Shown here: positions 7,258 to 31,436 of the stretch, one piece after another | Layout: each line of letters starts with the position of its first letter | Position numbering within the stretch: the first letter of the stretch is position 1 | The notes under the pieces: model-generated | Seen by the model: the letters and a program-made list of their open reading frames with translations, nothing else | Database searches by the model: none | What the model was told of the DNA's origin: nothing | Made by a program: the position numbers and the translations under genes | DNA from: Oligoflexales bacterium | Lineage (GTDB): Bacteria; Bdellovibrionota_B; Oligoflexia; Oligoflexales; RGVZ01 | Direction: 5' to 3' | DNA length: 35,589 bases | NCBI GenBank assembly: GCA_947445775.1 | Contig: CANFEB010000027.1 | Location: forward strand, 1-35,589

Positions 7258-8787
7258 TTGCTTGCAGGTCTGCATGCCATCGCCAAGGTTTTCATGGCCG
7301 GCACGGTTGTGTCGCTAGTCGCGGCGTGCCTTAATAAAAACTCCTCATCATCCCAGGCGCCAGATTCAATCGTCATTGAACAGACCTCGACAGTGACGGG
7401 TGTGCGTCCGGTCGTCGGCAAGCCTGGCGACGTGATGACTTTAAGTGGCAATAATTTGAATTCTGCCGTCGTGACATCGATTGAATCTGGCGCGGTATCA
7501 GCACGCGTTAGCGTTGTGTCTCCTGAATCCGGGACATTCATTTTTCCTGATGGGCTGGGTCTAGGCCTCAAAGAAGTCAAGGTCATGGCGGCTAGTGCCC
7601 AGGTCGGGGCGTTTTCGGTTGTCGCCAATTCGGCCGGGAATTTTTTGCCAATCATTATTTCTGATGCCGCTCTAGTTTGCAGCGATGTGACCTACATCAA
7701 TGCCGCCGGCGGTCAGTCCACTGGAACGCGTGCCTGCTCAGGAGCCTCGGTGGACCCCCACAGCATCAGAAAGGGCCAGACTGTTTCTGGCGTGGCTGGA
7801 AAGTTGATTCCCAACTGCCAGAATCGAGTCAATGGCAATATTTTTGACATGTCGGGAGGGACTAGTCTGGGTGTTGCCCGCGTAAAAAAAATCACCTCTG
7901 GTCAGATCTTCACCCTTGGCAAGATAGGCAATGCGCCGTTGCCAATGATCGCCAACTCGACTTTAATCAAACCAGTTGGATCAGTGCATCCCCTGCCTAA
8001 ATCGGCGGCTTATTTCACCATCAATACAGGGGTGCTTGACGGCAATCCGCCCGCCGAATCTACCACAATTGTTCCTGATAATTCCCTCTGGGAAGTGGCG
8101 CTCAAGGCGTCTAATGGGGGTGGTCATACGGTCGTTCTTTCAAATGCAGCCTGCGATGAAACTGATAGCCTCGCCACCAATGACGCCGACTGCTTCGACA
8201 TCGTTATGGCGGACTTTAATCGCGACGTCTGGGATACGATCGATGATCTCAACGGCCCCAGTAATCTTCCAGTCCCTGACAGCAGGTCCGACGACGGCAG
8301 GTCCCTCGAGGCTTTTCCGGAAAGTCTGTGCGGCTATATGGAAGGGGGCAGCCTTCCTGCTGGCGCTGTGGTTTCTTGGCAGGACAACACGATCGACGAC
8401 GCTGGAGTGGCCAGCAGTTGCTCTGCCACCAGCAGCAACTGTGCGCTGAAAGATTTGACCACCGGTTTGACCTGGTTCAAAGGACACGGCAATTTAACGG
8501 CGGAGAATTGGTACGAGGCCGTTTATTACTGCAGCACACTGGCTTTAAATTCTAGATCATGGCGTCTGCCGACCCAAAAAGAGTTGATGGCTGCGTATGT
8601 TGATACCATCAGAAATACGGTTGGGACGGGCACGGTGCAGGACTACAATACCGGCTGGTGGTCGAGCACCTCGGATAGCACCAATCCCACAAAAGGCTGG
8701 CATGTGAATCTGGCGACCGGTGCAACGGCATCGGGTTTGAAGTCTTTGAGTGCGAACAAGTCGATGTGTGTGCGAGACGCTGACTAA
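7258..8787 (+). CDS. DUF1566/Lcl C-terminal domain lipoprotein
   Basis: This is a predicted secreted lipoprotein of 509 residues. The N-terminus has a hydrophobic signal ending in SLVAAC, a usable lipobox with lipidated C24 if the TTG at 7258 is the start (GGGGGA lies eight bases upstream). ATG 7294 is the alternative and would leave only an 11-residue signal. After a Ser-rich stretch comes an IPT/TIG-like beta region (about 40-130, VTGVRPVVGKPGDVMTLSG). The C-terminal ~110 residues are a DUF1566 domain: LTTGLTWFKG, WRLPTQKEL, GWWSSTSD, CVRDAD. Such domains occur in surface proteins such as Legionella Lcl and in many uncharacterised lipoproteins. Binding partner unknown. The stop codon lies in a 15-bp tandem repeat. 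Confidence 0.8.
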   Translation: MLAGLHAIAKVFMAGTVVSLVAACLNKNSSSSQAPDSIVIEQTSTVTGVRPVVGKPGDVMTLSGNNLNSAVVTSIESGAVSARVSVVSPESGTFIFPDGLGLGLKEVKVMAASAQVGAFSVVANSAGNFLPIIISDAALVCSDVTYINAAGGQSTGTRACSGASVDPHSIRKGQTVSGVAGKLIPNCQNRVNGNIFDMSGGTSLGVARVKKITSGQIFTLGKIGNAPLPMIANSTLIKPVGSVHPLPKSAAYFTINTGVLDGNPPAESTTIVPDNSLWEVALKASNGGGHTVVLSNAACDETDSLATNDADCFDIVMADFNRDVWDTIDDLNGPSNLPVPDSRSDDGRSLEAFPESLCGYMEGGSLPAGAVVSWQDNTIDDAGVASSCSATSSNCALKDLTTGLTWFKGHGNLTAENWYEAVYYCSTLALNSRSWRLPTQKELMAAYVDTIRNTVGTGTVQDYNTGWWSSTSDSTNPTKGWHVNLATGATASGLKSLSANKSMCVRDAD

Positions 8788-8818
8788 CGAGACGCTGGCT
8801 AACGAGATGCTGACTAGT
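8774..8818 (+). repeat. Three 15-bp tandem repeats spanning a stop codon
   Basis: Units of the form GAGACGCTGACTAAC occur three times (8774-8788, 8789-8803, 8804-8818) with few differences. The repeat spans the stop of the lipoprotein gene. Because the unit is five codons long, each copy re-encodes RDA(D/G)-stop in the same frame, giving three successive in-frame stops. Confidence 0.85.
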
Positions 8819-13280: not shown

Positions 13281-13973
13281 ATGATCGATTCACTTGTCAA
13301 ACTGTTCAACCCGAATGACGGCCCTCACTTTGTCGTGATGTGCGCGATCACCCTGACACTGATCATCTCGGTCTCGATCATTGTCGAGCGGGTGTTCCGG
13401 TACTGGTATCAGTACGACCTTTCCAACAGCTCGGCATTCATGTCGGCCGTTCAGAAGTTGGTTATGAACAACTCCATTGAGAACGCAATTCGCCTGTGTA
13501 AGGGCAAGCGCAATCAAGGCCAGCTACTTCCTTATGTGCTGGCCGAAGGACTTAAGCGGGCCAACGACTCCACGGAGGAAATCGAAAACGCCATGCACCA
13601 CGCCCAATTGGCTGCCATTCCGCGGGTGGCGCGCCGGGTTCCCCTGCTGTCGACGACTGCCAACGTGGCCACGCTGCTGGGACTTCTCGGGACTTTATTT
13701 GGCCTCATCAAATCTTTTGCTGCCGCAGCCAACGCCACTGGTCAGCAAAAAGGCGTGATCCTGGCCCAAGGGATTGCAGAGGCGCTTTCGGCAACGACGT
13801 TCGGTCTTGCCACAGCGCTTTTGTGTTTACTTGTATACGGGATCCTGATGACCAAGCAGACCGCCATCATCGACGACATCAACCAGAATGCGGCGCGGCT
13901 TTTGGACTTGCTTTACACGCGCAAAATGAAAATCCGCAGTGGCCAGGAAATGACGACGGCGAGCGCAGACTGA
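13281..13973 (+). CDS. MotA/TolQ/ExbB proton-channel protein, AglR-like
   Basis: This is the inner-membrane stator subunit of a proton-motive-force-driven motor. The 230-residue product has three membrane helices: about 16-37 (FVVMCAITLTLIISVSIIV), 120-146 (LLSTTANVATLLGLLGTLFG) and 166-190 (EALSATTFGLATALLCLLVY). The TolQ/ExbB signature and conserved threonines of the third helix are present (ALSATTFGL). GGAG lies eight bases before ATG 13281. It is followed by two TolR/ExbD genes, the same one-TolQ, two-TolR set as Myxococcus AglR-AglQ-AglS. No TolA, TolB or Pal gene is in the cluster, which argues against the classical Tol-Pal system. Confidence 0.9.
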   Translation: MIDSLVKLFNPNDGPHFVVMCAITLTLIISVSIIVERVFRYWYQYDLSNSSAFMSAVQKLVMNNSIENAIRLCKGKRNQGQLLPYVLAEGLKRANDSTEEIENAMHHAQLAAIPRVARRVPLLSTTANVATLLGLLGTLFGLIKSFAAAANATGQQKGVILAQGIAEALSATTFGLATALLCLLVYGILMTKQTAIIDDINQNAARLLDLLYTRKMKIRSGQEMTTASAD

Positions 13974-13991
13974 TTTAACGGCAGGTGATTC

Positions 13992-14537
13992 ATGCGACGT
14001 AAACGCAAAGGCATCAAGCGCGACGAGCCAACTGACATTGAACTGAATATCATTCCGTTCATCGATGTTTTCTCTCTGCTCAATACATTTCTATTGTTCT
14101 CGGCGGTATTCATGGCCACCGGGATCATAGAGGTTCAGGTGCCATTTCTCTCGAATGCTCCGGCTCCCAAAGAAGAGGGGAAGAGGACGCTTGAGGTGAA
14201 GATTGATGCAGCGAAAAATAAGGTTCAGGTCATAACCGAATATTCAAAAGATCCCAGAAACGAACAGAAATTCGATTTTCCGAACAGCAAAGAAGGAATC
14301 GACCGGATGCACGAGCGTCTGGTCGCAATCCGTCAGGCGAATCCCACCCAGGACAAGCTGACGTTCTATTCCGAGGATGATGTTATTTGGGAAAATATTT
14401 CTGCCCTCCTTGATTCAGCTAAGTTTAGAAAACAGACGGACCCCATATTTCAGGTGAAAAATCCGAAGTCTGGCGAGATGGAGCAAGACACTCAATTCGT
14501 GTTTTCGAAGATCGTCATGGGCAGCGTGATTTTATAG
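13992..14537 (+). CDS. ExbD/TolR family motor protein 1, AglQ/AglS-like
   Basis: The 181-residue product has a short basic cytoplasmic N-terminus (MRRKRKGIKRDE) and a single membrane helix starting at IPFIDVFSLLNTFLLFS, with the proton-carrying aspartate D25. A periplasmic domain follows (about 45-181). TolR/ExbD proteins couple proton flow through the TolQ-type channel to movement in the periplasm. AGGTG lies just ahead of ATG 13992, 18 bp after the TolQ-like gene. The periplasmic part is longer than in E. coli TolR. Confidence 0.9.
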   Translation: MRRKRKGIKRDEPTDIELNIIPFIDVFSLLNTFLLFSAVFMATGIIEVQVPFLSNAPAPKEEGKRTLEVKIDAAKNKVQVITEYSKDPRNEQKFDFPNSKEGIDRMHERLVAIRQANPTQDKLTFYSEDDVIWENISALLDSAKFRKQTDPIFQVKNPKSGEMEQDTQFVFSKIVMGSVIL

Positions 14538-14563
14538 CCTGAATTTGTTGCCTGAATTTGTTG
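14538..14563 (+). repeat. Two exact 13-bp tandem repeats after the first TolR gene
   Basis: CCTGAATTTGTTG occurs twice in direct succession right after the stop codon of the first TolR-like gene, in the 48-bp spacer before the second. It looks like a recent local duplication; no function is apparent. Confidence 0.9.
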
Positions 14564-14585
14564 TGTGATTTAGGGAGTTGTTCAG

Positions 14586-15095
14586 ATGGCATCCGTCGGA
14601 AACAAGAAAGATACCCTATCCCTGAACCTGTATCCAATGATGGATATTTTCAGCATTTTAATTACATTCCTGCTCATGAGTTACTCCACTGATCCAGTTT
14701 CTCATGATGTGAATGCGGGGCTTGAATTACCGGACTCCCAGACCATGATCAGCCTCGATGAAATTCCGGCCATCATCGTCACCAAGTCGGAGCTTTTTGT
14801 TAACGATAAGAAAATTTCCGATATCGTTAATGGCGAAGTTCCGAAGGAACAATTGGGCGAGTCCTATCAGGGCGCGATCCGTCCTGTTTACGATGAGTTG
14901 AAGCGAATCTCCGATGCCAACAAGCGCATCGCTGTGGCTACTTCAACTGACCCTGCCCTACTTGGAAAAACGGGAGCCCTGACCATGGAAATGGATAAGG
15001 GGCATCCCTTCAAATTGATGAAGCGGATCATGCTTTCCGCCCAACAGGCTGAATTTGTAACCTTCAAACTTGTTGTGACGCGCCTCGAGAACTGA
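14586..15095 (+). CDS. ExbD/TolR family motor protein 2, AglS/AglQ-like
   Basis: This is a second TolR/ExbD paralogue of 169 residues. It has a short N-terminus, one membrane helix (YPMMDIFSILITFLLMS) with the conserved aspartate D20, and a periplasmic domain with the family-like segment RIAVATSTDPAL. AGGGAG lies eight bases before ATG 14586. It differs clearly from the first TolR protein in sequence, as AglQ and AglS do, so the two probably form a heteromeric pair with the TolQ-like channel. Both keep the aspartate needed for proton transfer, so both should be active. Confidence 0.9.
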   Translation: MASVGNKKDTLSLNLYPMMDIFSILITFLLMSYSTDPVSHDVNAGLELPDSQTMISLDEIPAIIVTKSELFVNDKKISDIVNGEVPKEQLGESYQGAIRPVYDELKRISDANKRIAVATSTDPALLGKTGALTMEMDKGHPFKLMKRIMLSAQQAEFVTFKLVVTRLEN

Positions 15096-15139
15096 ATTTT
15101 TATTGAGCTACATGCTGGGTTTAAGTGAAGGAGCCTCCA

Positions 15140-15952
15140 TTGGGTTGGCCGAAGCAAATTGGTGGTGGGAAACGATGTGGATTGAGGTTTTTGGCATCGA
15201 CTGCTTCAGCGGTCTTGATGGCCTTCGGGCTTTTTTTTGCGCCAACGGGCGTGGCGAGCGCTGCGGCAGACGCCTCCGGGAAGGCTGAAGATCAGCCCAA
15301 GGGGGGGCTATTTGACAACTACGAGGTCCGGGTTATCCGCCCGCGATTTTTCAGCAAGGCACGCCGCGCGGAATTTGGCGGGGAATTGAGTGTCGTGATG
15401 AACCAGACGTTCATCTATACATATTTGGCGACGGGTATCCTCAATTACCACTTTACCGAGAGCCTCGGCATTGAGCTTGACGCCAGCTATGGCTTCAGCC
15501 TGGACAAGGAAGACAAGACTCTGCTGAAGAGCAGTTTCACCATCAGCACGCAGATCCAACGCACCCAGTATCAATTCCAGGGCGGGCTTGTCTGGACACC
15601 CCTCTATGGCAAATACCAGCTCGCCAGCGGGCGCCTGATTTATTTTGATACGTTTCTTATTGGCGGCGGGGGCATGACGGGCATCGATTATCAATTTGAT
15701 CATTGCCAGACTTCGTCTAGTGGAACGACCGCGACGCCGCCGACGGCGGTCACCAAAAGCTATATCGGTGGAATGGTTGGCATCGGGCAGCGCTTCTTCA
15801 TCGACAAAAACCTGTCACTTCGATTTGAGGTTCGGGACAATTTTATTTCCGTCAACGAGCGGGATGGATCTTGCGATCCTGAATTTACTGCTGATTCAAC
15901 CAAGATGATTCAAAACGTCACGATGCAGGTTGGCGCCTCTCGTTTTCTTTAG
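15140..15952 (+). CDS. Outer-membrane beta-barrel protein of the Agl/Glt-like cluster
   Basis: This is a predicted 270-residue outer-membrane barrel. It has a signal peptide (basic GGGKRCGLRF, then a hydrophobic stretch ending GVASA before AADASG). Alternating strands follow (FIYTYLATGILNYHF, LGIELDASYGFSL, YQFQGGLVWTPLYGKY) and the end is VTMQVGASRFL. The layout matches the small barrels that accompany Agl/Glt-type TPR proteins in myxobacteria and Bdellovibrio relatives. The start is decided by the ribosome-binding site: GAAGGAG six bases before TTG 15140. A GTG at 15125 is in frame but has no such signal. It lies between the motor genes and the TPR genes and may provide the outer-membrane exit or anchor (inference). 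Confidence 0.78.
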   Translation: MGWPKQIGGGKRCGLRFLASTASAVLMAFGLFFAPTGVASAAADASGKAEDQPKGGLFDNYEVRVIRPRFFSKARRAEFGGELSVVMNQTFIYTYLATGILNYHFTESLGIELDASYGFSLDKEDKTLLKSSFTISTQIQRTQYQFQGGLVWTPLYGKYQLASGRLIYFDTFLIGGGGMTGIDYQFDHCQTSSSGTTATPPTAVTKSYIGGMVGIGQRFFIDKNLSLRFEVRDNFISVNERDGSCDPEFTADSTKMIQNVTMQVGASRFL

Positions 15953-16016
15953 ATTTAGTAGGCTCTGTAGGGACTCTAGGTATTGTCGGTGGCGGGACTT
16001 CAAAGGTGAATAGATC

Positions 16017-17603
16017 ATGATTTCAGCAGGTGCAATGATTCGAATATTCAACAGGACAACCGTCTCTGCCGGCCTTTTTCGGCTGATTTCGTGCCTAATT
16101 TTTTGCGGATTATTTTTTGGCAATGCCGCGCTAGCTAATTTACAAAACACCTCGGTACTTTATACCCGTGGTGACTTTTCCGGGGCAGCATCCGCAGCAT
16201 TTCAAGTTTACAGTTCCAGCCGCAATGCCCAGGAGAAAATGAATGCCGGGATTTTTCTGGCGCGTTCGCTGCAGGCCCTTGATCTGCCCTATTCAGCCTC
16301 GCGTTTTTATGGCGCGATTGTTCGCCAGGGTCCACAGAATAACCCGTTTTTTCGCGAGGCCTTTGAAAAGCTCGGCGCCATCAACAGCATGGTAAGCCTT
16401 GGGCAGGCGCAAATTGTCCAGATGGTTTCTGGTAGGGATGGGGGCGCGTTGAACCCCGAATTCATTCCCGGGTCCGCGCGGGGGTTTTATTTCTACTACC
16501 TCGGAGTTGATAGCTTCGATGACCGCAAATACGGCGCAGCCGTGCGCTTATTCAAAAGCGTACCCGGTGGATCCCCATACTACTTACGTGCTCAATTTCA
16601 CTTGGGAGTTATCGCCAACCTTCAGGGCCAGCACAGTCAGGCCATCAGTTACTTTAGTGGTGTGGCTTCTGGTGCACGTCGTGATGACGACGGCGACCAC
16701 CTGCGCTCGGGGGCCATCATGAACATCGCTCGGGTCGAATACGAAACCAAAAGGTACAACGATTCCCTCATGCAGTATGGGCGAGTCAGCCGTGATTCTG
16801 ATCAGTGGTTAGACGCGCAATTTGAAGGCTCATGGGCATTTTTCATGATTGAGAAGCAGAACAACGCCCTTGGCAACCTGCATACCGTTCAGTCACCATT
16901 TTTCGAAAACCGGTTTTATCCGGAGAGTTACATCCTGCAGTCGATTACTTTCTTGCGGTTATGCCGTTTTGACGAAACCAAAGTGGCCCTTGTGAAGTTT
17001 CGTGACCGTTACCAACCGCTTTTCGGTGAGTTGAAAAAGCTAATCAACGACTACGGCGACAATCCAAGGTCTTTTTACAAACTTGTTTACGATTTTCGCG
17101 GCGGATCACTGACTCGTTTCAAGGAGTCCTGGCCAATATTTGACACACTCTCGCGTACGGATGCCTTTCGCGAGGGTGCGATTGCGGTTCGCAACTCAGA
17201 CTCTGAACTTGCGCGTCTGTCGCGTTATGGCGGAAAATGGGCCAGCTCGGGGTTGCAAGAAGAGCTTCGTGATTTCTTGGGTAAGAAAAAAGCGGTTGCA
17301 GCTGATGAGGCTGGGCGAAAACTTTACCTTAAGCTAAGCGTTCAAAGGGATTACTTGAAGGAGCTTTCCCGCCAGACAGAGTTCATCACTGCCGAGATGT
17401 TGCTGAATCGGGTTGATGCCCTGCGCGCCTCCCTGCAGGTTTCTACTGCCGAACAACGCGTTAATTTCATCGGTGGATTTCAGACTCTGAACGTGGCTCA
17501 GGAGCTCGAATACTGGCCTTTCCAGGGCGAATATTGGGAGGATGAACTCGGTTACTACGTTTACAATTTAGCCAGCCAGTGTCTGAAGTCCGGCAGAAAA
17601 TAA
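16017..17603 (+). CDS. Secreted TPR-repeat protein 1 of the Agl/Glt-like cluster
   Basis: The 528-residue product has a signal peptide (hydrophobic FRLISCLIFCGLFFGNAALA) and then helical TPR-type repeats, clearest at about 55-115 and 150-300 (AARSLQAL-like, YYLRAQFHLGVIANLQGQ, AISYF). The C-terminal end (LEYWPFQGEYWEDELGYYVYN) resembles the tail of GltD/AgmU-like proteins as I recall them, so the equivalence is tentative. It would lie in the periplasm as a scaffold between motor and outer membrane. ATG 16017 has AAAGGTG upstream; ATG 16035 is an alternative that keeps the signal peptide. It is in line with the barrel gene (64 bp) and the next TPR gene (54 bp). Confidence 0.75.
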   Translation: MISAGAMIRIFNRTTVSAGLFRLISCLIFCGLFFGNAALANLQNTSVLYTRGDFSGAASAAFQVYSSSRNAQEKMNAGIFLARSLQALDLPYSASRFYGAIVRQGPQNNPFFREAFEKLGAINSMVSLGQAQIVQMVSGRDGGALNPEFIPGSARGFYFYYLGVDSFDDRKYGAAVRLFKSVPGGSPYYLRAQFHLGVIANLQGQHSQAISYFSGVASGARRDDDGDHLRSGAIMNIARVEYETKRYNDSLMQYGRVSRDSDQWLDAQFEGSWAFFMIEKQNNALGNLHTVQSPFFENRFYPESYILQSITFLRLCRFDETKVALVKFRDRYQPLFGELKKLINDYGDNPRSFYKLVYDFRGGSLTRFKESWPIFDTLSRTDAFREGAIAVRNSDSELARLSRYGGKWASSGLQEELRDFLGKKKAVAADEAGRKLYLKLSVQRDYLKELSRQTEFITAEMLLNRVDALRASLQVSTAEQRVNFIGGFQTLNVAQELEYWPFQGEYWEDELGYYVYNLASQCLKSGRK

Positions 17604-17657
17604 TTCATAGAGATTGAGACAAAGCCTGAGACTGAGTCACAGGTGAAAAGGGTTTAG

Positions 17658-20600
17658 ATGCCAGATAAAAAATTTGTCCAGCGCGCGGTCCTCAGTTTGG
17701 TGGTGGGCTTCTGGTTGTCCCCAATTCTTATGGGTGCGGTCGACGTCAGCACCGATGCGGGCCGGGGCAAGGACCACAAAAGTCTGGGCGTCAATGTTGT
17801 GGAGAGGAAACTCGAAAAGGGTGGTTCTGATCGCAAGAACACGTCCTCCTTTACGCGTGCCGAGGCGTTCCTCGTGGCCACCGAACAGAAACTGAGCTCG
17901 CAAATCGGGCAAACAATACAATATTTGCAAAAAATTGAGCCACGCACCCCGGCACAGTCGCCAGAACGATTGCGCATTCTGGAGCAGCTGCTCAATTTGA
18001 ATATGGAACTCGGCCTTTATGAGTCCAACGACGAATTTCGCCGTTACGACGAAGCTTACGAACGTTGGGACGGAAGTGGGCGTCGCGGGCCAGAACCTAA
18101 ACTTAGCGCCGCCAAGTCGCAAAATCAGTGGCGACTCGTGGCGACCCGGGCGGAAAACTTGTTGCGGCAGTTTCCTCGGGCTCGCAATGCCGATGACACG
18201 ATGTTCAACCTGGCTGTGGCCTATCAGTTTCAAAAACGGGAAAAGGATGCGGCCCGTGCCTATACGCAGTTGATCACCAAATACCCGAATTCGCCCAAAT
18301 CCGGGGATGCGTATTTTCAGCTTGGGGATTTTTATTTTGATAAGTTGAACTTTCGGGCAGCAACAAACAATTACAAGCAGGCCCTGCGCTACAAGCGTTC
18401 ACGCGGTTATTCATGGGCTTTATTTAAATTGGGCTGGTGTTCATATAACCTCGGCGATTATCCGAAAAGCCTTGAGTTCTGGAAGGCGACCGTGGCAAAT
18501 GCCCGCCAGTCGGACGACAAATCGGTTGGGCAGCTGAAGGACGAAGCACTCCGGGATATGGTCTATTCATTTGCTGAATTGCAGCAAGTCGATCCCGCCA
18601 TCAACTACTACCGCTCAAACGGTGGCGAAAAATACATCGGAAAGTTTTTATTGCTACTCTCCGGCGTCTTCACCGACCAGGGGAAATATGGTGATGCGAT
18701 CAGCACACTGAAAAAGTTCCAACAAGTTACTCCGACAAACCTCGCGGCACCCGAGGCCCAGCAAGATATTTTGTCTCTGACCTATGAGCTGGGACGCTGG
18801 AACTCCCTGTGGACTGAATTGGAAATATTTCCAAAGCAATACGGACCGGGTAGCCAGTGGGAGAACGCCAATCAGGAGAATCGCAAGGAGGTTCTTGAGG
18901 CTCAGGCACTGATCAAGGATCAGTTGCTTTACTATGCCAAGGTCACTCACAAGTCGGGGCAAAAAAATGACGACGTGAGAATTTATCGCGAGGCGATGAA
19001 GGGCTATAATCTGTTTCTCAGGTTTTATCCGAAGGCCAATGAGGTTGTTGAAGTCAAATACAACATGGCCGACATTGAATATTTCCTGAAGGACTACAGG
19101 TCATCAGGAAAGCTCTATCTGGAAGTCGCCTTGTTGGGCAAGGACAAGGCAGTGATCTTGGCTTCGGGTGGCAAAAAGTCAGTCAATGTCCACAAGCCGG
19201 CCGCAAAATACATGCTGGATTCTTATTACCTGGATTTCGAGCCAGAATTCAAAGTCTTGAACAAGACCAAACCGGATTTCACAAAGCCGGGCAAGATATC
19301 TGAAAGGTCCAGCAACTTCATCAAAGGGTGCGGATACTATCAGGGGTGGTATCCGGAGGATCGCAAGAATCTGAAAACCTGCGATCTTTATGTGACGGAA
19401 ATTTATTATCGCTTGGGTGATAAACTGATGGCGATCAAGTATCTGACCAACCTTGCCAACAAGTATCCCAACGAAAAAGAAGGCCCCCAGGCCGTTGAAT
19501 CTTTGATTCCACTTTACAAGGGTGATCGGAAGGGGCTCTTGGAAACTGCGGATAAATTGCTCAAGATTCCCGCCTATCAAAAGGGCGAACTCGGGGAAAA
19601 GCTGCGTGATTTGCGGCGCTCGGCCGAGATCGAGGAAGTGGCAAGAATCCAGGATCCCCTCAAGCGCGCCAAGGCATATGAAGATCAGGCTCGTAGAAAT
19701 CCAAGCAATCCCGAGGCTGACAAATTGGCCTTCAATGCTGCGGTTGACTACACGAAAGGTGGCGCAGTGCCCCAGGCTGTTGCCATGTATCTGGTCATCC
19801 TCAAAAACTATCCAAAGTCGCCCCAAGCCCGAGAATCGCTGCTGCAAGTCGCAAAACTGAAAGACCGTCGCCTAGAGTTTGAGTCTGCAGCAGAATTTTT
19901 TGGTGAATATGCTCAGCGCTATCCAAAGGAAAAGGATGCACTTTCCGCCCTGGGGCGGTCATGCGAATTGCTTGTTGCCAACGAAAGCCCGAAGGCTGTC
20001 CAGGCCTGTTTAGATTTGGCCAAGTTTGATCAGGAAGGGGCCAAGGCCCTGTTCGCCCGGATGATTCGCTCTGCGGCCTATGGTCAAAAGTTTGAACGAC
20101 TGAATTCGCTAGTAGCGACTTACTTTGCAAAATTCAATCCGACACCGGATGAACGTATCCTTGCTGCCTACCTGATCTACCATGTCGCGAAGGGTAAGGG
20201 CACGGAGGCCGTGAGGGCGGTGGGCGAGATGACCCAAGCTTATCAAAAATCGGGCGGGAAAATTTCTGGTGAGGCTTTGCGGTGTATAGGCGAGATTTTA
20301 TTCAAGCGCGCCCTAGTGGAAGTTCCGAAGTATGAGGCGGTTAAGCTTACCGGCGGAACGGTCGATGCGCTCGCGGGCTCGATCGATCGCAAGGCTGGCG
20401 CACTTGGCAAGCTGCGGCAAAGTATGGACTCGGTCATTGCCGCCAAGGATTCTTTTTGGGGGGTCGCAGCCCTATATGAAAACGGTAAGGCCTATGAGGA
20501 ATTCGCTGCAGAGATGGATAATCCGCCAGCCATCAAGGGCGCCAGTATCGATGACGTAAAAAAGAAGTTGGCTCCCCAGGCTGAGGCCGCCCGCAAAGAA

Positions 20601-20789
20601 GCGGCAAACTTCTACAAGATCGCCATGGAAACGATGGGCAAGTTTCACGTTTACAGCAATTACTCACGCCGCGTGGTTTCCGGGGCAGCCAAGTCATCTG
20701 GTTCCAAATTGTTGATGGAAGACTGGCTTGAGGTTCCTGATCTTGTAGGCTCGGAAGTTTCCGAATCTGTTGCGGCGGAAGTCCGATGA
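17658..20789 (+). CDS. Large secreted TPR-repeat protein 2 (1043 aa) of the Agl/Glt-like cluster
   Basis: The 1043-residue product has an N-terminal signal sequence (FVQRAVLSLVVGFWLSPIL) and many TPR units across the rest. Clear ones are at about 185-275 (NADDTMFNLAVAYQFQKREK, AYFQLGDFYFDKLNFRAA, ALFKLGWCSYNLGDYPKS), about 455-490 and 690-770. It is predicted to be a long periplasmic superhelix for protein docking. The size and repeat content recall GltD/AgmU- or GltC-type components, but I cannot assign it one-to-one. AAGGG lies five bases before ATG 17658. The next gene starts 11 bp after its stop. Confidence 0.8.
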   Translation: MPDKKFVQRAVLSLVVGFWLSPILMGAVDVSTDAGRGKDHKSLGVNVVERKLEKGGSDRKNTSSFTRAEAFLVATEQKLSSQIGQTIQYLQKIEPRTPAQSPERLRILEQLLNLNMELGLYESNDEFRRYDEAYERWDGSGRRGPEPKLSAAKSQNQWRLVATRAENLLRQFPRARNADDTMFNLAVAYQFQKREKDAARAYTQLITKYPNSPKSGDAYFQLGDFYFDKLNFRAATNNYKQALRYKRSRGYSWALFKLGWCSYNLGDYPKSLEFWKATVANARQSDDKSVGQLKDEALRDMVYSFAELQQVDPAINYYRSNGGEKYIGKFLLLLSGVFTDQGKYGDAISTLKKFQQVTPTNLAAPEAQQDILSLTYELGRWNSLWTELEIFPKQYGPGSQWENANQENRKEVLEAQALIKDQLLYYAKVTHKSGQKNDDVRIYREAMKGYNLFLRFYPKANEVVEVKYNMADIEYFLKDYRSSGKLYLEVALLGKDKAVILASGGKKSVNVHKPAAKYMLDSYYLDFEPEFKVLNKTKPDFTKPGKISERSSNFIKGCGYYQGWYPEDRKNLKTCDLYVTEIYYRLGDKLMAIKYLTNLANKYPNEKEGPQAVESLIPLYKGDRKGLLETADKLLKIPAYQKGELGEKLRDLRRSAEIEEVARIQDPLKRAKAYEDQARRNPSNPEADKLAFNAAVDYTKGGAVPQAVAMYLVILKNYPKSPQARESLLQVAKLKDRRLEFESAAEFFGEYAQRYPKEKDALSALGRSCELLVANESPKAVQACLDLAKFDQEGAKALFARMIRSAAYGQKFERLNSLVATYFAKFNPTPDERILAAYLIYHVAKGKGTEAVRAVGEMTQAYQKSGGKISGEALRCIGEILFKRALVEVPKYEAVKLTGGTVDALAGSIDRKAGALGKLRQSMDSVIAAKDSFWGVAALYENGKAYEEFAAEMDNPPAIKGASIDDVKKKLAPQAEAARKEAANFYKIAMETMGKFHVYSNYSRRVVSGAAKSSGSKLLMEDWLEVPDLVGSEVSESVAAEVR

Positions 20790-20800
20790 GGGGGCGCATT

Positions 20801-21889
20801 ATGTCAGCCATGAAGTCGGCCAATTTAAGCAGCATTCTTATCGTTACGATGTTTCCGTTCGCTTTCAGCGCGGCATCGTGTTCCACCGCCAAGAAAAAAT
20901 TGGTTGAGGATCAGGAAGAATCCAGTTCGGTTGGCAGCGAGGGCCCCCAAGATCCTGTCTCCTCGTCCATTTCCGCTGATCGCCGGTTGGTGATTCAGTC
21001 GTTGAGCCGCGATCCCCTGATGCAACGGGCTGTCAACCGCCAAAAGGTTGATCAATTGGCCGCGAAACTGGCGCCTCTGGTCCAGTCGGGAAAGGCAGAT
21101 CGCCGCGTCTTGGAGGCCTATTTGAGTGCCCAGCGGTTGGGCACGCGGCCACTGGGCGAGCAAGCCGCGACCGCCCGTGCGATTGCCGATCAGAGCATGC
21201 GCAAAAATGTTGATTTTGAACTTTCTGCGGCAATCAGGCTTGAATTGGCCATTTCAGCGGTGGAAGCCGAGCGCCTAGCCCTGGCTGAATTTTTTCTGGA
21301 TCCGCTGTTCAAATTGAAGGAGGGCCGGGTCCGTGCCGGCGCATTCAATTTAGCCGGTGTGATCGCCGTGAAGCAGGACCGGATTCCCGAGGCTGTGGTT
21401 GCATTTCAAGAGGCGTTGAAATCGGCGAATGATTATCGCCCGGCCAAAATAAATCTTGGCATGCTGGCTCTTGACGGTGGCGACTTTAATCTTGCTCGGG
21501 GACTATTGACCGATGTTGGTGATGACGCATTGGTGGCCAGCGGTGAAGTTACCATAACCAGATTCAAAGACGGATCAGACCGGGCTAGCGAACTGTGCAA
21601 ATCGGCGGCAGCAAAGCACCCAGATTTCAAACCGCTGCTGTTCAACTGCGCCCTGAATGATCTGCAGGGAAAACGCGACTTACCGCGCGCCAAGGAATAC
21701 CTATCCCGCATGCTGCGCGCCCCTGGAGCGGACCGCCGGGCCGACAAGTATAACGACCGCGCCCAGAGGCTCATGATGGCGATAGATGCGGAAGCGAATA
21801 CCGCCAAAGCACCCGAAAAAACTGGCGACAAGGCCCCCGAAAAATCTTCCCCCAAGGCGGGCGCTGACGGCAATCCCGCCGCGAAGTAA
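20801..21889 (+). CDS. TPR-repeat lipoprotein 3 of the Agl/Glt-like cluster (GltE/AglT-like)
   Basis: The 362-residue product has a lipoprotein-type signal (ILIVTMFPFAFSAASC, lipobox AASC imperfect) and an acidic/Ser linker. TPR repeats fill about 110-310 (AGAFNLAGVIAVKQDRIPEAVVAFQEAL written in parts: AFNLAGVIAVK, PEAVVAFQEALK, AKINLGMLALDGGD). The C-terminal tail is Ala/Lys/Pro-rich (AKAPEKTGDKAPEKSS). GAGGGGG lies six bases before ATG 20801; an upstream ATG at 20786, overlapping the previous stop as ATGA, is less well placed. An outer-membrane TPR lipoprotein is a core Glt-type component in Myxococcus (GltE/AglT). A similar role is inferred from context, not shown. Confidence 0.78.
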   Translation: MSAMKSANLSSILIVTMFPFAFSAASCSTAKKKLVEDQEESSSVGSEGPQDPVSSSISADRRLVIQSLSRDPLMQRAVNRQKVDQLAAKLAPLVQSGKADRRVLEAYLSAQRLGTRPLGEQAATARAIADQSMRKNVDFELSAAIRLELAISAVEAERLALAEFFLDPLFKLKEGRVRAGAFNLAGVIAVKQDRIPEAVVAFQEALKSANDYRPAKINLGMLALDGGDFNLARGLLTDVGDDALVASGEVTITRFKDGSDRASELCKSAAAKHPDFKPLLFNCALNDLQGKRDLPRAKEYLSRMLRAPGADRRADKYNDRAQRLMMAIDAEANTAKAPEKTGDKAPEKSSPKAGADGNPAAK

Positions 21890-22003
21890 GTCGTGGTAAT
21901 ATTTAATGGTAATGTTTAGACAAATGGAAATTTCGGACAATGCTGTAAATCAGGTTTTGATTGTTTTGGACTTTTAGAACCTTGCACGAGGTTTCAAGTT
22001 CCC

Positions 22004-24196
22004 ATGCTAGAACTGCGTTTCACACTACCAGGACAGTCGGAACAGAGCGTTCCGTTGGATCAATCGCGCCTCGTGATTGGGGCGTTGCTGTCAAACCAGA
22101 TCGTGGTTCGAGCTGCGCTGGTTGAGCCAATTCATGGTTTGATCGAGGCACTGGAAGAAGATTCCCCGGCCGCCAGTAAAAAGTGGCAGTTGACGGACCT
22201 CGGTTCTGAGGCCGGAATCCAGGTAAACGGCAAATTCATCGATGTTGAAACGTCCGTAAAAATTGGGGACGTGATCACGATTGGATCCGTTGAGCTGCTA
22301 ATGGCTGAGAATCGCGAGCCCGTTGCTGCGGCGGTTCAAGTGCCACCGCCGCCGCCGGGGCGTTTTGCGACGACCACCACGACCACACCTCAGGCAAAAG
22401 CCGGGGCAGCAGGAGCCTTAGGAACTGCTGCCACATCAGGCGCAGCCACGGTTCTGCGGACGCCGGATGCACGGGGCGGACAAAGGCCTGGTCAAGCGAT
22501 TGAAAGCCAAATGCCACGCAGTGGCGTTTTATTTTCCCCCAAGGCCGCGCGTCCAGCCGGAGACGTCCTTGAGGCCGTGGCCTACTGGGGCGATACGGTC
22601 TTGGATGTCGATTATTTTCATCCCAGCATCAAGGGCAACGAACAGGTTTTGATCGGCGATCCCACGGGCGAGGCGCATTTAATCGCTGCCGGTCCGGACA
22701 ATATCACCAGCCACGCCTTGGTATCCATGTCCAGCAGCGGATTCCGGTTGCGATTGCTCCCGGGTATGCGTGCGCGTTTACGCCGTGGCGGAAAAATCGA
22801 AAAGGTCGAAGGGCCGGCAAAAATCAATCTCGACCGGCGCGATATTGCTATGATCAAATACGGCGCGGTCAGCTATTTTTTGATGAACATCCGCCCGCCG
22901 GTTTTGGAAATTCCGAAGCGCGGGCTACGGGATCCATTTTTTACGACGATCTTGTCGATCGGCATGTTGATTTTTGCACTTTTTATTCCATTGACCTTCA
23001 TCATCAAGCCCAAACCTGAAGATAAAAAGAAGGACGATATTTGGGCCATTGTGAATTTGCCTGAAACCGTCAAGCCACCAGAGCCGACTCCTAAGCCGCT
23101 GAAGCAAAAAGTCGAAATTCAAGAAGTAAAGGTCCCGCCTCCGGTTGTGAAGGCGCCACCTCCGCCCAAGCCGATGCCAGTGAAGGCGGTCAAGCCGATT
23201 GAGAAGGAAAAGGTCGAGCAGCCGAAGCCGGTTGAAAAACCAGTTCCCGAGAAAAAGCCGACCCAGCTTTTGACCGAGGCCACCAAGCCATCGGAGAGCC
23301 AACAGCAACCGCAAAAGCCTCAGCCGAAAATCCAAGACAAATTGGATAAGCTGGCCAAGGCTTCTGGCGGAATTGCATCGGCAGATTCTAAAAAACCTGA
23401 CTTTAAGTACGCCGGCCCGCAAAACAATAAGCCAATGGGAGCCGCTGGTGGCGCCAAGGGCAGCGGGATGAATCAGAAGGGCGGCGAAATCAAGGGCAAC
23501 AAGGCCGCCAGCGTCAAAGGCGTTGAAGGGGTTGCGAGTGAAAAGCCGTCGGGCGTCAACTTGGATAAGCTGGGCCTCGGCGCGGGCAAGGTTTTAAATA
23601 AATCCAGCGCCAGTGCGATCTATACCAATATGCAAAGCTCGGCCGGTGGGGCCGGGGGCGGCATGGGCTCCGGAGCCAAGACCTATGGTCTGGGTGGAGC
23701 CGGCGGCGGAAAATCCCTAGGGTTGGCCGGAGCTGGTGGTGCCGTGAACAACTTCGGATCTGGATCTGGCGGGCTTTTAGGTGGCCAGGGCGGTCTGGGT
23801 GGTGCGGGCGGAGCCGGTGGTGGCAAGGGAGCAGGGTTTGGCGGTGGTGCGGGCCATGGCCGTGCGAACGTTGAAGTCCCACCGGGAGATCCTGTGGTGT
23901 CCGGGGGCCTGAGCGCCCAGGAAATTTTGCAGGTCGTCCGAGCCAATTTGAATCAGATCCGGCACTGCTACGAACAATTGCTGCAGCGCTCGCCAAGCGC
24001 CTCTGGAAAACTAGCGGTCAATTGGACTATTAATGCACAAGGTAGCGTAACTTCCGTGAGAATTGGGGAATCAACGATTTCAGATTCCCAGATGAAGGGA
24101 TGCGTCACGGGGCGCATCCAACGCTGGAAGTTCCCGGATCCGCGGGGCGGCCAGACGGTCGAGGTTAGTTACCCGTTTACCTTCAACCCAATTTGA
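22004..24196 (+). CDS. FHA - transmembrane - TonB-like (AgmX/PglI C-terminal) protein, GltG-like
   Basis: The 730-residue product would span from cytoplasm to outer membrane. An FHA-like beta domain is at about 1-105 (LDQSRLVIGALLSNQIVV, GIQVNGKFIDV), then a Pro/Thr/Ala linker and a second cytoplasmic beta region at about 185-300. One membrane helix is at about 312-334 and a Pro/Lys-rich periplasmic stretch at about 340-440 (TonB/TolA-like). A Gly-rich segment runs about 540-630. The C-terminal AgmX/PglI-type TonB-like domain is at about 640-730, with the paired cysteines C655 (RHCYEQLL) and C700 (MKGCVTGRIQRWKFP). This is the architecture of Myxococcus GltG. FHA domains bind phosphothreonine, so control by a Ser/Thr kinase is possible (inference). 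A 114-bp A/T-rich gap precedes it; surE follows after 13 bp. Confidence 0.85.
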   Translation: MLELRFTLPGQSEQSVPLDQSRLVIGALLSNQIVVRAALVEPIHGLIEALEEDSPAASKKWQLTDLGSEAGIQVNGKFIDVETSVKIGDVITIGSVELLMAENREPVAAAVQVPPPPPGRFATTTTTTPQAKAGAAGALGTAATSGAATVLRTPDARGGQRPGQAIESQMPRSGVLFSPKAARPAGDVLEAVAYWGDTVLDVDYFHPSIKGNEQVLIGDPTGEAHLIAAGPDNITSHALVSMSSSGFRLRLLPGMRARLRRGGKIEKVEGPAKINLDRRDIAMIKYGAVSYFLMNIRPPVLEIPKRGLRDPFFTTILSIGMLIFALFIPLTFIIKPKPEDKKKDDIWAIVNLPETVKPPEPTPKPLKQKVEIQEVKVPPPVVKAPPPPKPMPVKAVKPIEKEKVEQPKPVEKPVPEKKPTQLLTEATKPSESQQQPQKPQPKIQDKLDKLAKASGGIASADSKKPDFKYAGPQNNKPMGAAGGAKGSGMNQKGGEIKGNKAASVKGVEGVASEKPSGVNLDKLGLGAGKVLNKSSASAIYTNMQSSAGGAGGGMGSGAKTYGLGGAGGGKSLGLAGAGGAVNNFGSGSGGLLGGQGGLGGAGGAGGGKGAGFGGGAGHGRANVEVPPGDPVVSGGLSAQEILQVVRANLNQIRHCYEQLLQRSPSASGKLAVNWTINAQGSVTSVRIGESTISDSQMKGCVTGRIQRWKFPDPRGGQTVEVSYPFTFNPI

Positions 24197-24209: not shown

Positions 24210-25004
24210 GTGACCCAGGGAAGCACTCAAAAACCATTGTTTCTGCTCTGTAATGACGACGGAGTGCATGCCCCTGGGATCAAGGTTTTGGCGGAGGCCA
24301 TTGCCCCGCTCGGGGACGTGGTTGTGGTCGCCCCCCACGTCGAAAGGTCGGCCTCGAGCCATGCAATTTCGATCCATAGCCCGCTCAGAGTAGAACAAAT
24401 TGGCCGTAATATTTATGCGGTCGAAGGCACCCCGGCGGACTGCATCATGCTGGCCTGCCGGCGCCTATTGCACCGCAAGCCATCCTGGGTCATTAGCGGC
24501 ATCAATCGGGGTGGAAACCTCGGAATTGACACGCTTTATTCGGGTACCGTCCATGCCGCTATGGAGGGGGCTTTGCACGGCTACCGGGCCATGGCTGTCT
24601 CCAGCCACGGACGGGGCAATTTGAACTACGAAACCGCCGGGCGGGTGGTCCGGATGCTCCTTGAAAAGCAAGAACTACTAGCCGTGAGCGACCGTTTTAC
24701 GATAAACGTGAATGTTCCGAACCTGCCGTTCGACGAACTCAAGGGGATCTCGGTGGCAGGAATGGGTCGTCGAATTTATGAAGATGAGATGGTCGAGGGG
24801 ATCGACCCCAGAGGGCGCCCGTATTATTGGATAGGCGCCGGTGGTGAGATGTTCGAGGATATCCCGGACTCTGACTGCTGCCTGGTGGATCAAGGCTACG
24901 CGACTGTATCGGTCCTGAAGCCAAGCCTCCTCGACGAGCGTGCGAATGATCTGCTTCGGCAAGTTTTGCCCGACGCGTTTTCAGGATCGTTTGCACAAAG
25001 GTAA
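24210..25004 (+). CDS. surE: 5'/3'-nucleotidase SurE
   Basis: The product is a metal-dependent phosphatase acting on nucleoside monophosphates, linked to stationary-phase and stress survival. The 264-residue product has the metal-binding DD pair in LLCNDDGVHAPG, the VVAPHVERSASSHAIS segment, GTPADC, SGINRGGNLG and YSGTVHAAMEG, all hallmarks of the family at normal length. GTG 24210 is the start; no strong ribosome-binding site is seen, and it follows the GltG-like gene by 13 bp, so it may depend on coupling. The surE to nlpD-like order matches the surE-pcm-nlpD arrangement of gammaproteobacteria with pcm missing. Confidence 0.94.
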   Translation: MTQGSTQKPLFLLCNDDGVHAPGIKVLAEAIAPLGDVVVVAPHVERSASSHAISIHSPLRVEQIGRNIYAVEGTPADCIMLACRRLLHRKPSWVISGINRGGNLGIDTLYSGTVHAAMEGALHGYRAMAVSSHGRGNLNYETAGRVVRMLLEKQELLAVSDRFTINVNVPNLPFDELKGISVAGMGRRIYEDEMVEGIDPRGRPYYWIGAGGEMFEDIPDSDCCLVDQGYATVSVLKPSLLDERANDLLRQVLPDAFSGSFAQR

Positions 25005-25043
25005 GAACCGGCCGGGAGCCTGATGCTTCCCATAGGAGGGTTC

Positions 25044-26051
25044 ATGTTGCGACTTCATTTTGGTGAAGTTTTAGGTGGTTTGGTTTTTTGTGTGCGTCAT
25101 GGCCGCGTTTCTTTCTTCGGCCTGATGATGTTTTTTGCGACCGGTTGCATGACGTTTGGAAGCCGCGACGGCGTGATCTATCAGGTCCGTGTCGAAAACG
25201 GCGATACTCTGGCCAACCTGTCGAAACGTTTTGATTCTAATTGGCAAAGTGTAGCCAGGATGAATGGGCTCAGCGGCAAAAACCCATTGCGCGTGGGCCA
25301 GGTTCTGCGTGTGGCGGCCGGGGTCGGAGCCAGCGACCTCAAAATCGGGCACGTTGATATGCCCATATCGCGGCGCTCCCAGGGTAATGTTTCTGCAAAA
25401 AGTCGCGGTCCAGCCGACGATGATTCTCGTTATGAGCAACCAGGCACTCCAGAGGCAGGCGACGAGCGAAGCTGGCAAGAGGAAGACCTCAATGCCCCAC
25501 GGAAAACTCCGGGCGCTGTGGATTCCGAGACGGATGATGACAGGGCGAGTGATTCCCGGGGCGGGCGTGGTTCGAAGGCTCGCAGCGGAATGATGGGCGA
25601 GCCAGCCCAGAATTTTGTAGTGAGTTGGCCAGCGCCTGGCGATGTTTCGTCCAACTACGGTCCTCGTTGGGGCCGCTTTCACAATGGCATCGACATCCGG
25701 GCAAGTCGTGGCGCGCAGATCCGAGCGGCGGCCGATGGGCGGGTGATTTTTGTTGGGCGTTTGAATGGGTATGGCAGAACCGTCATCGTCGATCACGGCC
25801 AATATCGCTCCCTGTACGGCCACTGCGAAAAGATCGTCGCCAAGCAGGGCACTTGGGTCAAATCAGGCACCCACATCGCCCACGTCGGGATCTCCGGGAA
25901 TTCTCGGGGGGCCCATTTGCACTTTGAACTGAGAACCCGCCGCGACCAGCCGGTGGATCCGATTCCTTTCATGGAAGCAAAACTTCTGAGTTCTGTGACT
26001 CATAAAAAATCCCGTAAAAAAGCCGTCGTTCGCACGGCAGCCACGCACTAA
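25044..26051 (+). CDS. NlpD-like LysM + M23 peptidase lipoprotein
   Basis: The 335-residue product has a lipoprotein signal with lipobox FATGC (lipidated C about residue 35). A LysM domain at about 50-95 (YQVRVENGDTLANLSKRF) binds peptidoglycan. A charged Ser/Arg/Asp-rich linker follows, then a C-terminal M23 (LytM) domain at about 190-310. The M23 zinc site looks complete: H213 and D217 in FHNGIDIR, H291 and H293 in HLHFE, plus the YGHC histidine. NlpD of E. coli has lost these residues and acts as an amidase activator, so this one may itself be a peptidase. AGGAGG lies four bases before ATG 25044; ATG 25023, with GGGAG, is a close alternative. Confidence 0.85.
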   Translation: MLRLHFGEVLGGLVFCVRHGRVSFFGLMMFFATGCMTFGSRDGVIYQVRVENGDTLANLSKRFDSNWQSVARMNGLSGKNPLRVGQVLRVAAGVGASDLKIGHVDMPISRRSQGNVSAKSRGPADDDSRYEQPGTPEAGDERSWQEEDLNAPRKTPGAVDSETDDDRASDSRGGRGSKARSGMMGEPAQNFVVSWPAPGDVSSNYGPRWGRFHNGIDIRASRGAQIRAAADGRVIFVGRLNGYGRTVIVDHGQYRSLYGHCEKIVAKQGTWVKSGTHIAHVGISGNSRGAHLHFELRTRRDQPVDPIPFMEAKLLSSVTHKKSRKKAVVRTAATH

Positions 26052-29762: not shown

Positions 29763-30836
29763 ATGGTCAGAAAAAGCCTTGCTGAGATTGGAGCGAAAGC
29801 CTTGCAGCTGTTGCCGCCCGAGGCTGCACATGATCTGGGTATGCAACTTTTGGCCCTGGATCCCTTGCGGTTTTTTGCGGATGATTCTGCGCCTTTCGCT
29901 GTCCTTGAACGTCAGGGCCTTGGTTGCAAGGTGAACCTGCCTGGAATCGGCGAGCTGCCTCATCCAATCGGCCTGGCTGCTGGATTCGACAAAAACGCAG
30001 TTGCGCTGAAGGCTCTGGTCCGACTCGGATTTTCTCACATTGAAATCGGTGCGGTAACGCCACGCCCGCAAACAGGAAATCCAAAGCCGCGGTTGTTTCG
30101 TTATCGTGAGGACCTGGCGCTCATCAATCGCATGGGGTTTAATAACGACGGCGTAACCAAAATCAGCGATCGATTGCGATCCAATGGTTCTTTCGTCGCT
30201 AATGACTCCTGCGCCGCTTGCGCCGTGGGGGTCAACATTGGCAAAAATAAGGATACGCCCCCCGATGGCGCCATCGATGATTTTATGGAAGTTCACGCCG
30301 GCTTCAAGGATCTTGCCCGGTTTTTTGTCATCAACTTGAGTTCCCCCAATACGCCCGGTCTGCGGGAGTTGGCGACTCCGGAATTCATCGCTGAACTCGC
30401 GCGCCAGTTTGGTCCGGAAATACAAAAAATCTGGATCAAGTTTGATCCCGATATGAATCGTGACTCCTTTCAAAAACTGGTAGAAGCCACTGGCGTCGGT
30501 GGCTTTGGCGGGCTCGTGTTGACCAACACCCAGCGCGTCAACAAACCTGAGTCTGGCGGGCTTTCGGGGCAGCCGCTTCTTGGGCGAGCCAACACCGTTT
30601 TGGAATGGGCCTGGGACGTGCATCGCGGAAAAATTCCGATGATCGGCGTCGGCGGCATCATGTCTGGCGGAGATATTCTGGATAAAATCGTTCGTGGCGC
30701 CAACGCCGTCCAGATTTACACGGCATTGGCCTTTCAAGGTCCGCTGGTGGTGGCAAACCTGATGGCTGGGCTTGGGGTGGAAATGAGGCAGCGCGGATTT
30801 TCCTCACTTGAGGCGGCCCGAGGGGCTCATTATTAA
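29763..30836 (+). CDS. pyrD: Dihydroorotate dehydrogenase (quinone), class 2
   Basis: This FMN enzyme oxidises dihydroorotate to orotate in pyrimidine synthesis and passes electrons to quinone; class 2 enzymes bind the membrane through an N-terminal helical region. The 357-residue product has HPIGLAAGFDKNA, EIGAVTPRPQTGNPKPRLFR, NRMGFNNDG, the class 2 signature NLSSPNTPGLR with the catalytic Ser, and GVGGIMSGGD. ATG 29763 has AGGA nine bases upstream; a longer reading to 29673 would overlap the previous gene. The C-terminus is of normal length. Its last codons form the first copy of a 31-bp direct repeat and overlap the antisense end of the AbiEi-like gene by 33 nt. Confidence 0.95.
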   Translation: MVRKSLAEIGAKALQLLPPEAAHDLGMQLLALDPLRFFADDSAPFAVLERQGLGCKVNLPGIGELPHPIGLAAGFDKNAVALKALVRLGFSHIEIGAVTPRPQTGNPKPRLFRYREDLALINRMGFNNDGVTKISDRLRSNGSFVANDSCAACAVGVNIGKNKDTPPDGAIDDFMEVHAGFKDLARFFVINLSSPNTPGLRELATPEFIAELARQFGPEIQKIWIKFDPDMNRDSFQKLVEATGVGGFGGLVLTNTQRVNKPESGGLSGQPLLGRANTVLEWAWDVHRGKIPMIGVGGIMSGGDILDKIVRGANAVQIYTALAFQGPLVVANLMAGLGVEMRQRGFSSLEAARGAHY

Positions 30837-31436
30837 TTGGGTCAGGCGTAGCAGTTCTATAACCATTTGCCGCCGCGAGTCTGAGGCAATCAATTTCGCA
30901 TATCCAAGTGCACGTTGCATGCGGAACCCTTTCGGCAGTTCTAGCTCAGGCAAAGCCCGAAAACTCCGAGACCGCGTCTGCCTGAGATAGAAGAAGTCCA
31001 CCAAAGCCTTCTCAGGGGTAGCTATCTGTGCTGGTCCTCCGGCGAGTGGCTCGAACCCGCAAAAAAAATCTGGGACGACTTGATGTATGGCATACGTTCC
31101 GACTGTTGTTTTGGCGGTGCGTGTCTTGGCCGTCGAAACGAGATGGATCGTGGTGGGGATCTGCTCGATCATCCCGTGATGAAAGAGGGCCGTCTGGAGC
31201 GACACATAGCTAGGCGATGGGTCGGACAGATAGGGATGCAGCGTCCACGGATTTGCCTGGCGGTCGAGGAGCCATAGCCCGCGCACCAGTCGTGTCAGGT
31301 GTCCGACCCGAGCCAGTCTTGCGAGCATGGTGCTCGCCGTGGCTCGGCTGACGTTCCAGAGCGCCGCCGCATCATTTGTGCGCACGACCAGGGTCGGCAT
31401 GGCGCGAAGCTTCGCCAGTGCTTCGTTGAGGCTCAT
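30804..31436 (-). CDS. AbiEi-like antitoxin / winged-HTH repressor
   Basis: The 210-residue product has an N-terminal winged helix-turn-helix (NDAAALWNVSRATASTMLARL, about 23-43, then GHLTRLVRGLWLL) and an AbiEi-type C-terminal domain (PSYVSLQTALFHHGMIEQIP; EKALVDFFYLR). AbiEi proteins neutralise the AbiEii nucleotidyltransferase toxin and repress their own operon by binding inverted repeats. The start overlaps the toxin stop as ATGA. Being second in the operon is the reverse of the usual AbiEi-AbiEii order. The last ~14 residues (from about TQLIMSPSGRLK) are read from the direct repeat and antisense pyrD sequence, so the original C-terminus was probably different. Confidence 0.85.
   Translation of the reverse strand: MSLNEALAKLRAMPTLVVRTNDAAALWNVSRATASTMLARLARVGHLTRLVRGLWLLDRQANPWTLHPYLSDPSPSYVSLQTALFHHGMIEQIPTTIHLVSTAKTRTAKTTVGTYAIHQVVPDFFCGFEPLAGGPAQIATPEKALVDFFYLRQTRSRSFRALPELELPKGFRMQRALGYAKLIASDSRRQMVIELLRLTQLIMSPSGRLK
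30817..30847. repeat. 31-bp direct repeat, left copy (pyrD 3' end)
   Basis: These 31 bp, from the pyrD codons for Arg-Gly-Ala-His-Tyr and the stop to GGGTCAGGC, match 32278-32308 at 29 of 31 positions in the same orientation. The two copies lie 1461 bp apart and bracket the AbiEi/AbiEii genes. Confidence 0.93.

Follow-up and report, generated by a model that had tools for sequence, protein, structure and literature searches.

The window, that is the whole stretch of 35,589 nucleotides analysed here, is contig C27 of a 2.48-Mb genome in 60 contigs that is about 90% complete. Its nearest named relatives are MAGs labelled Oligoflexales and Pseudobacteriovorax, followed by the Silvanigrellales, and the Oligoflexales lie within the Bdellovibrionota. 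Between positions 13281 and 24196 the forward strand carries eight intact, co-directional open reading frames with successive gaps of 18, 48, 29, 64, 54, -4, and 114 bp. Based on searches of the window proteins with Pfam and NCBIfam models, the first gene (13281..13973) encodes an AglR-like proton channel of the TolQ/ExbB type with 230 residues (MotA_ExbB, 5e-23). It is followed by two TolR/ExbD-type proteins, an AglQ-like one of 181 residues (13992..14537; ExbD, 2e-9) with the motor aspartate D25 at 14064-14066 and an AglS-like one of 169 residues (14586..15095; ExbD, 4e-10) with D20 at 14643-14645. Next come an outer-membrane β-barrel of the GltA/GltB type (15125..15952; 275 residues), a GltC homologue, which is an exported TPR protein of 528 residues (16017..17603), a GltD-like exported TPR protein of 1043 residues (17658..20789; TPR_6, 5e-18), and a GltE-like TPR lipoprotein of 367 residues (20786..21889). 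The last gene (22004..24196) encodes a GltG homologue composed of an FHA domain (22073-22285; 3e-8), a single transmembrane helix (about 22949-23005), a Pro-/Gly-rich linker, and a TonB-like C-terminal domain (23909-24187), the end of the protein being matched by TonB_C and myxo_SS_tail (3e-32). The reading frames and family matches thus bear out the original prediction of a TolQ-type and two aspartate-bearing TolR-type proteins, a barrel, and an FHA-TM-TonB protein in one orientation. Of its three exported TPR proteins two stand as such, and the third is a lipoprotein with a conserved Cys32.

The predicted eight-gene run is intact and tightly packed but probably does not end with GltG. A surE gene (24210..25004, forward strand; SurE, 7e-56) begins 13 bp past the last of the eight genes, and a gene for an NlpD-like LysM-M23 protein (25023..26051, forward strand; Peptidase_M23, 1e-29, LysM, 2e-10) follows 18 bp past surE. 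Because of these short distances the transcription unit probably comprises ten genes, the eight machine genes together with surE and the NlpD-like gene. Both genes are found downstream in many Oligoflexales loci, and loci of the Silvanigrella type keep only the NlpD-like gene. SurE, although probably co-transcribed, is not part of the machine. Further downstream on the reverse strand (30804-32176) two adjoining reading frames resemble, by eye only, a toxin-antitoxin pair of the AbiEi/AbiEii type.

The comparison with Myxococcus was made through NCBIfam models and Myxococcota loci, and the components are recognised with different clarity. The barrel exceeds the cut-off of its family (TIGR04565, OMP_myx_plus; 100.6 bits against a cut-off of 60, E 9e-29), and its AlphaFold model (pLDDT 86) has an OmpA-type eight-stranded fold (1qjp, TMt 0.81). 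GltC reaches 221 bits on NF033756 (E 2.8e-65; equivalog cut-off 450), GltG 113 bits on NF033760 (E 1e-32; cut-off 650), where the GltG of a Myxococcales locus reaches 330 bits, and the GltE-like protein only 28 bits on NF033758 (E 1.4e-6; cut-off 225), a match based on its TPRs. Because all three score under the equivalog cut-offs, GltC and GltG are homologues and not equivalogs of the M. xanthus type, and the GltE-like protein is a candidate homologue. The name GltE-like rests mainly on the position of the gene and on Cys32, which is conserved at the lipobox position; in loci of the Silvanigrella type GltE was seen by profile only. The GltD-like protein was identified not by the M. xanthus sequence itself but by the full-length profile of its orthologues and by synteny, as Myxococcota loci have a large TPR protein in the corresponding place, after GltC and before GltE/GltG. 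This protein and its syntenic counterparts in other loci are matched by the profile with about 220-440 bits. The expected resemblance of the TPR proteins to Glt proteins is therefore found for GltC and, by profile and synteny, for the GltD-like protein. The C-terminal domain of GltG was modelled with a pLDDT of 89 and has TonB C-terminal domains as its top PDB matches. Sequence searches of the PDB with GltG and GltC as queries gave only TonB, FHA, generic TPR, or chance matches.

The motor proteins could in principle belong to a Tol-Pal or ExbBD system, but this identity was rejected on the basis of the channel tree and of separate sets elsewhere in the genome. In a tree of 54 sequences the window channel groups with channels whose genes lie ahead of a TolR-type gene pair, among them the channels of Myxococcota genomes that carry Glt (support 100/98). 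The genome's own TolQ, encoded in a separate tolQ-tolR-tolA-like-tolB run on contig C10, and its own ExbB, from a separate Exb-type set on contig C15, both fall outside this Agl-type clade, so that a closest relationship to Tol-Pal or ExbBD does not hold for the channel. Judged by its place in the tree, the TolQ-type protein is of the Agl type, as originally proposed, and neither Tol nor Exb. The claim that there is no Tol-Pal partner is correct for the operon, within which none of TolA, TolB, and Pal was found, but not for the genome with its run on C10. D25 and D20 are kept in the orthologues aligned. Outside Oligoflexia, several Agl-type pairs have the aspartate replaced by Asn or Gly in one TolR-type protein only, in the first of the two in L167, L171, L172, L175, and L178 and in the second in L168. 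As read from the sequences, this one-sided replacement suggests motors with a single aspartate.

A further set of similar composition is encoded on another contig of the same genome (G000:C14; L072, 9281-12844, reverse strand). In this run a TolQ/ExbB-like channel protein is joined by a pair of single-TM proteins resembling TolR and by a 568-residue protein ending in a GltG-type tail. In all 12 loci of this kind that were aligned (the L194-L205 series), both TolR-like proteins are without an acidic residue at the transmembrane motor position. The channel, which has a near-invariant EDIKDEEEII at its end, is present in 44 of 56 genomes, including a genus without the Glt operon. By its residues, the set is apparently a conserved, proton-dead Agl-like complex.

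The gene order channel-TolR-TolR-barrel-GltC-GltD-GltE-GltG is identical in 22 complete loci of other genomes, which excludes chance, and two Oligoflexus MAGs carry the operon (L089, L111). Of the 58 genomes of the phylum, 48 have a GltC homologue, and one sister genus of eight mostly near-complete genomes has none. The order GltC-D-E-G is homologous in Myxococcota and other phyla, and profiles built from the Oligoflexia GltC, GltD-like, and GltG proteins match homologues, with the order unchanged, in loci of Myxococcota, in loci labelled Bdellovibrio, and in others. Beyond Oligoflexia, the majority of the Glt loci read also encode a short exported protein (about 90-110 residues) between GltE and GltG. 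It lies where NfsF does in the nfsA-H order (PMC3858216) and is called GltF here by this position. The 114-bp gap between GltE and GltG of the window operon contains no reading frame of that size. A simple absence of GltF was considered and dropped after an unlinked homologue turned up in the same genome (C8:73510-73794, 43 bits). In the 56 genomes compared, the presence of a GltF homologue, linked or not, tracks GltC (44 with both, 9 with neither, 3 discordant; Fisher p 7e-8, and p 0.015 with the eight-genome genus counted once), although this is supportive only because the genomes are not independent. The proposal of a compact, possibly ancestral or variant form therefore holds for a compact variant, but given the unlinked GltF homologue the operon may equally be rearranged rather than ancestral. 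The unlinked homologue has a divergent neighbour (L209, G000:C8, 7372-8424 on the reverse versus 8478-8807 on the forward strand). Relatives share this neighbourhood, and the protein in them to which the neighbour is related is a PD40 propeller of the TolB-like type. GltF-like proteins are also encoded between GltE and GltG in MAGs labelled rumen bacterium and Sumerlaeota (L132-L152), and thus range more widely than the Myxococcales and Bdellovibrionales given in 2011.

Many Oligoflexia relatives have a second cluster with the order barrel-GltC-GltD-GltE-GltF (L058-L065, L067, L071), which in the nine loci read contains neither motor nor GltG. One GltF homologue in Oligoflexia belongs to this second cluster and another is unlinked elsewhere. 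The second cluster was not found in the window's own genome, about 90% complete. In a relative that has it (G039, 97% complete) there are just two strong GltG-tail proteins, and neither lies within the second cluster. By analogy, the arrangement recalls Nfs, which borrows the Agl motor. Exopolysaccharide genes were not seen linked to the window operon or to the second cluster.

The original prediction had noted that no GltJ-like gene and no MglA GTPase lie in the window, and neither was found genome-wide in the assembly, which is about 90% complete. A genome-wide search with myxo_SS_tail gave GltG, one other strong protein, and one weak match; because GltG and that other protein are the only strong GltG-tail proteins, GltJ is regarded as not found. 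An Arf-family search (PF00025), whose sensitivity for MglA is uncalibrated, gave no match of MglA size in this genome or in three congeners. Small GTPases of two other genomes (G023, G024) resembled MglA candidates at first, but the one that was read, a 163-residue protein of G023, is unlike MglA by eye, and a 214-residue Arf GTPase in a relative's MAG (208 bits; L158, G007:C64) looks like eukaryotic contamination. Across Oligoflexia the operon is nearly always unaccompanied by MglA, and therefore it probably performs a different job from gliding in Myxococcus.

The homologies and domains of the proteins, their motor residues, and the conserved order of the genes are established, and from these together we consider it likely that the operon encodes a trans-envelope machine of the Agl/Glt class that is driven by protons and has an output other than MglA-steered gliding. 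How its parts would form a complex, pass on force, and rotate or transport can be drawn by analogy with AglRQS, for which the interaction of AglR with GltG and the dependence on the proton motive force are known in M. xanthus (PMC3169522, PMC3858216). The AglR-like channel and a heterodimeric AglQ/AglS axle would draw on the proton motive force via the two aspartates and move GltG, whose transmembrane helix and Pro-rich stalk would span the periplasm. Its TonB-like C-terminal domain would touch an assembly at the outer membrane made up of the barrel, GltC, and the GltD-like and GltE-like proteins, which the unlinked GltF homologue might assist. As the likely output, material of the outer membrane or the surface would be moved directionally or put under tension. 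Transducers of the TonB/TolA type bind the motor through a transmembrane histidine (PMC12204202). The helix of GltG has no such histidine, and therefore its coupling to the motor may differ. We infer that surface or envelope transport is more likely than gliding because MglA is near-absent, the gliding parts are trimmed, and Oligoflexus has been described as non-motile, although the description of the type strain, O. tunisiensis, is not specific to surface gliding (PMC4179278). The genome also encodes flagellins and secretion-type ATPases of types II and IV, and thus other motility routes exist.

True gliding with some other control in place of MglA, a proposal made for Bdellovibrio, is nevertheless worth weighing, because the core is the same as in the M. 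xanthus glider and Bdellovibrio glides without GltH/I/J/K (PMC3169522). Luciano 2011 suggested AglRQS together with GltA-G as the mark of potential gliders, and a GltF homologue is present, if unlinked. The same study argued that the core genes are insufficient for motility (PMC3169522), and with a single GltA/B-type barrel in the operon, no GltJ found in the genome, no MglA found in the genus, and O. tunisiensis described as non-motile (PMC4179278) we regard gliding as unlikely. The alternative to be taken most seriously is a machine for the assembly of a surface polymer or coat, similar to Nfs, with a motor that serves the motor-less second cluster of relatives as well. The AglRQS motor of M. 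xanthus powers both Glt and Nfs (PMC3858216), and the nine second clusters without motor and GltG, as well as the location of both GltG-tail proteins of G039 outside the second cluster, would fit such sharing. However, no exopolysaccharide genes were seen beside either cluster, this genome shows no second cluster, and Oligoflexus does not form spores (PMC4179278), so that we lean against this explanation while leaving it considerable weight. It would be very improbable that the operon is a second system of the Tol-Pal or TonB type for outer-membrane upkeep or nutrient uptake. The TolQ/TolR-type motor and the TonB-like C-terminal fold are what such a system would share, but the genome has its separate Tol-type and Exb-type sets, the channel belongs to the Agl-type clade, and the operon lacks TolB, Pal, and a TonB-dependent receptor, its barrel being an eight-stranded OmpA-type fold.

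Returning to envelope transport by an Agl/Glt-class machine, Oligoflexia offer a clean natural case for the role of the core in bacteria not known to glide. Motor and transducer are united in one conserved operon that is almost always without MglA and from which the gliding add-ons are trimmed, many relatives have the motor-less paralogous cluster, and a sister genus of eight genomes is without the system. It could be imagined, though this broader view is somewhat unlikely to be right, that one MglA-free Agl-type motor operon powers both GltG-bearing and motor-less complexes for general surface or envelope transport, and that myxobacterial gliding and the spore coat are later specialisations. 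The unlinked GltF homologue also means that surveys of gene clusters undercount parts of the machine.

The core complex of AglRQS with GltC, D, E, and G has already been described by Luciano 2011 (PMC3169522), which found these seven components, GltE being the one for which the operon has only a probable counterpart, clustered together in bacteria not known to glide; that study predates the Oligoflexia genomes, and it also reports an extra gene in non-delta cores. Compared to this core, the Oligoflexia insert one OMP_myx_plus barrel between the motor and GltC. No description of the Oligoflexia form, in which the barrel is built in, GltF is displaced, and MglA is near-absent, was found in the literature searched. 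Like the AglRQS-Glt system of M. xanthus, in which GltG binds AglR (PMC3169522), the operon has one channel, two Asp-bearing TolR-type proteins, GltC, GltG, GltD-like and GltE-like proteins, and a barrel. In M. xanthus these genes are spread over the separate M1, G1, and G2 clusters, which include two barrels (GltA, GltB) and GltF, whereas here they form one gene run with one barrel and GltF is unlinked on C8; GltJ and MglA were not found for this genome. With the Nfs system (NfsA-H) of the Myxococcus spore coat the operon shares its compactness and the order barrel-C-D-E-G, but Nfs has no motor of its own and includes F and H, while the window operon contains the motor and lacks F. The Bdellovibrio genes Bd0828-0838 and related clusters, from the same phylum according to the NCBI taxonomy, represent an expanded core without GltH/I/J/K (PMC3169522), and in the Bdellovibrio-labelled loci L122 and L125 GltF lies between GltE and GltG and the motor is encoded elsewhere in the genome. 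The Oligoflexia operon is thus a variant of the known Agl/Glt core complex, and the core itself is not new.
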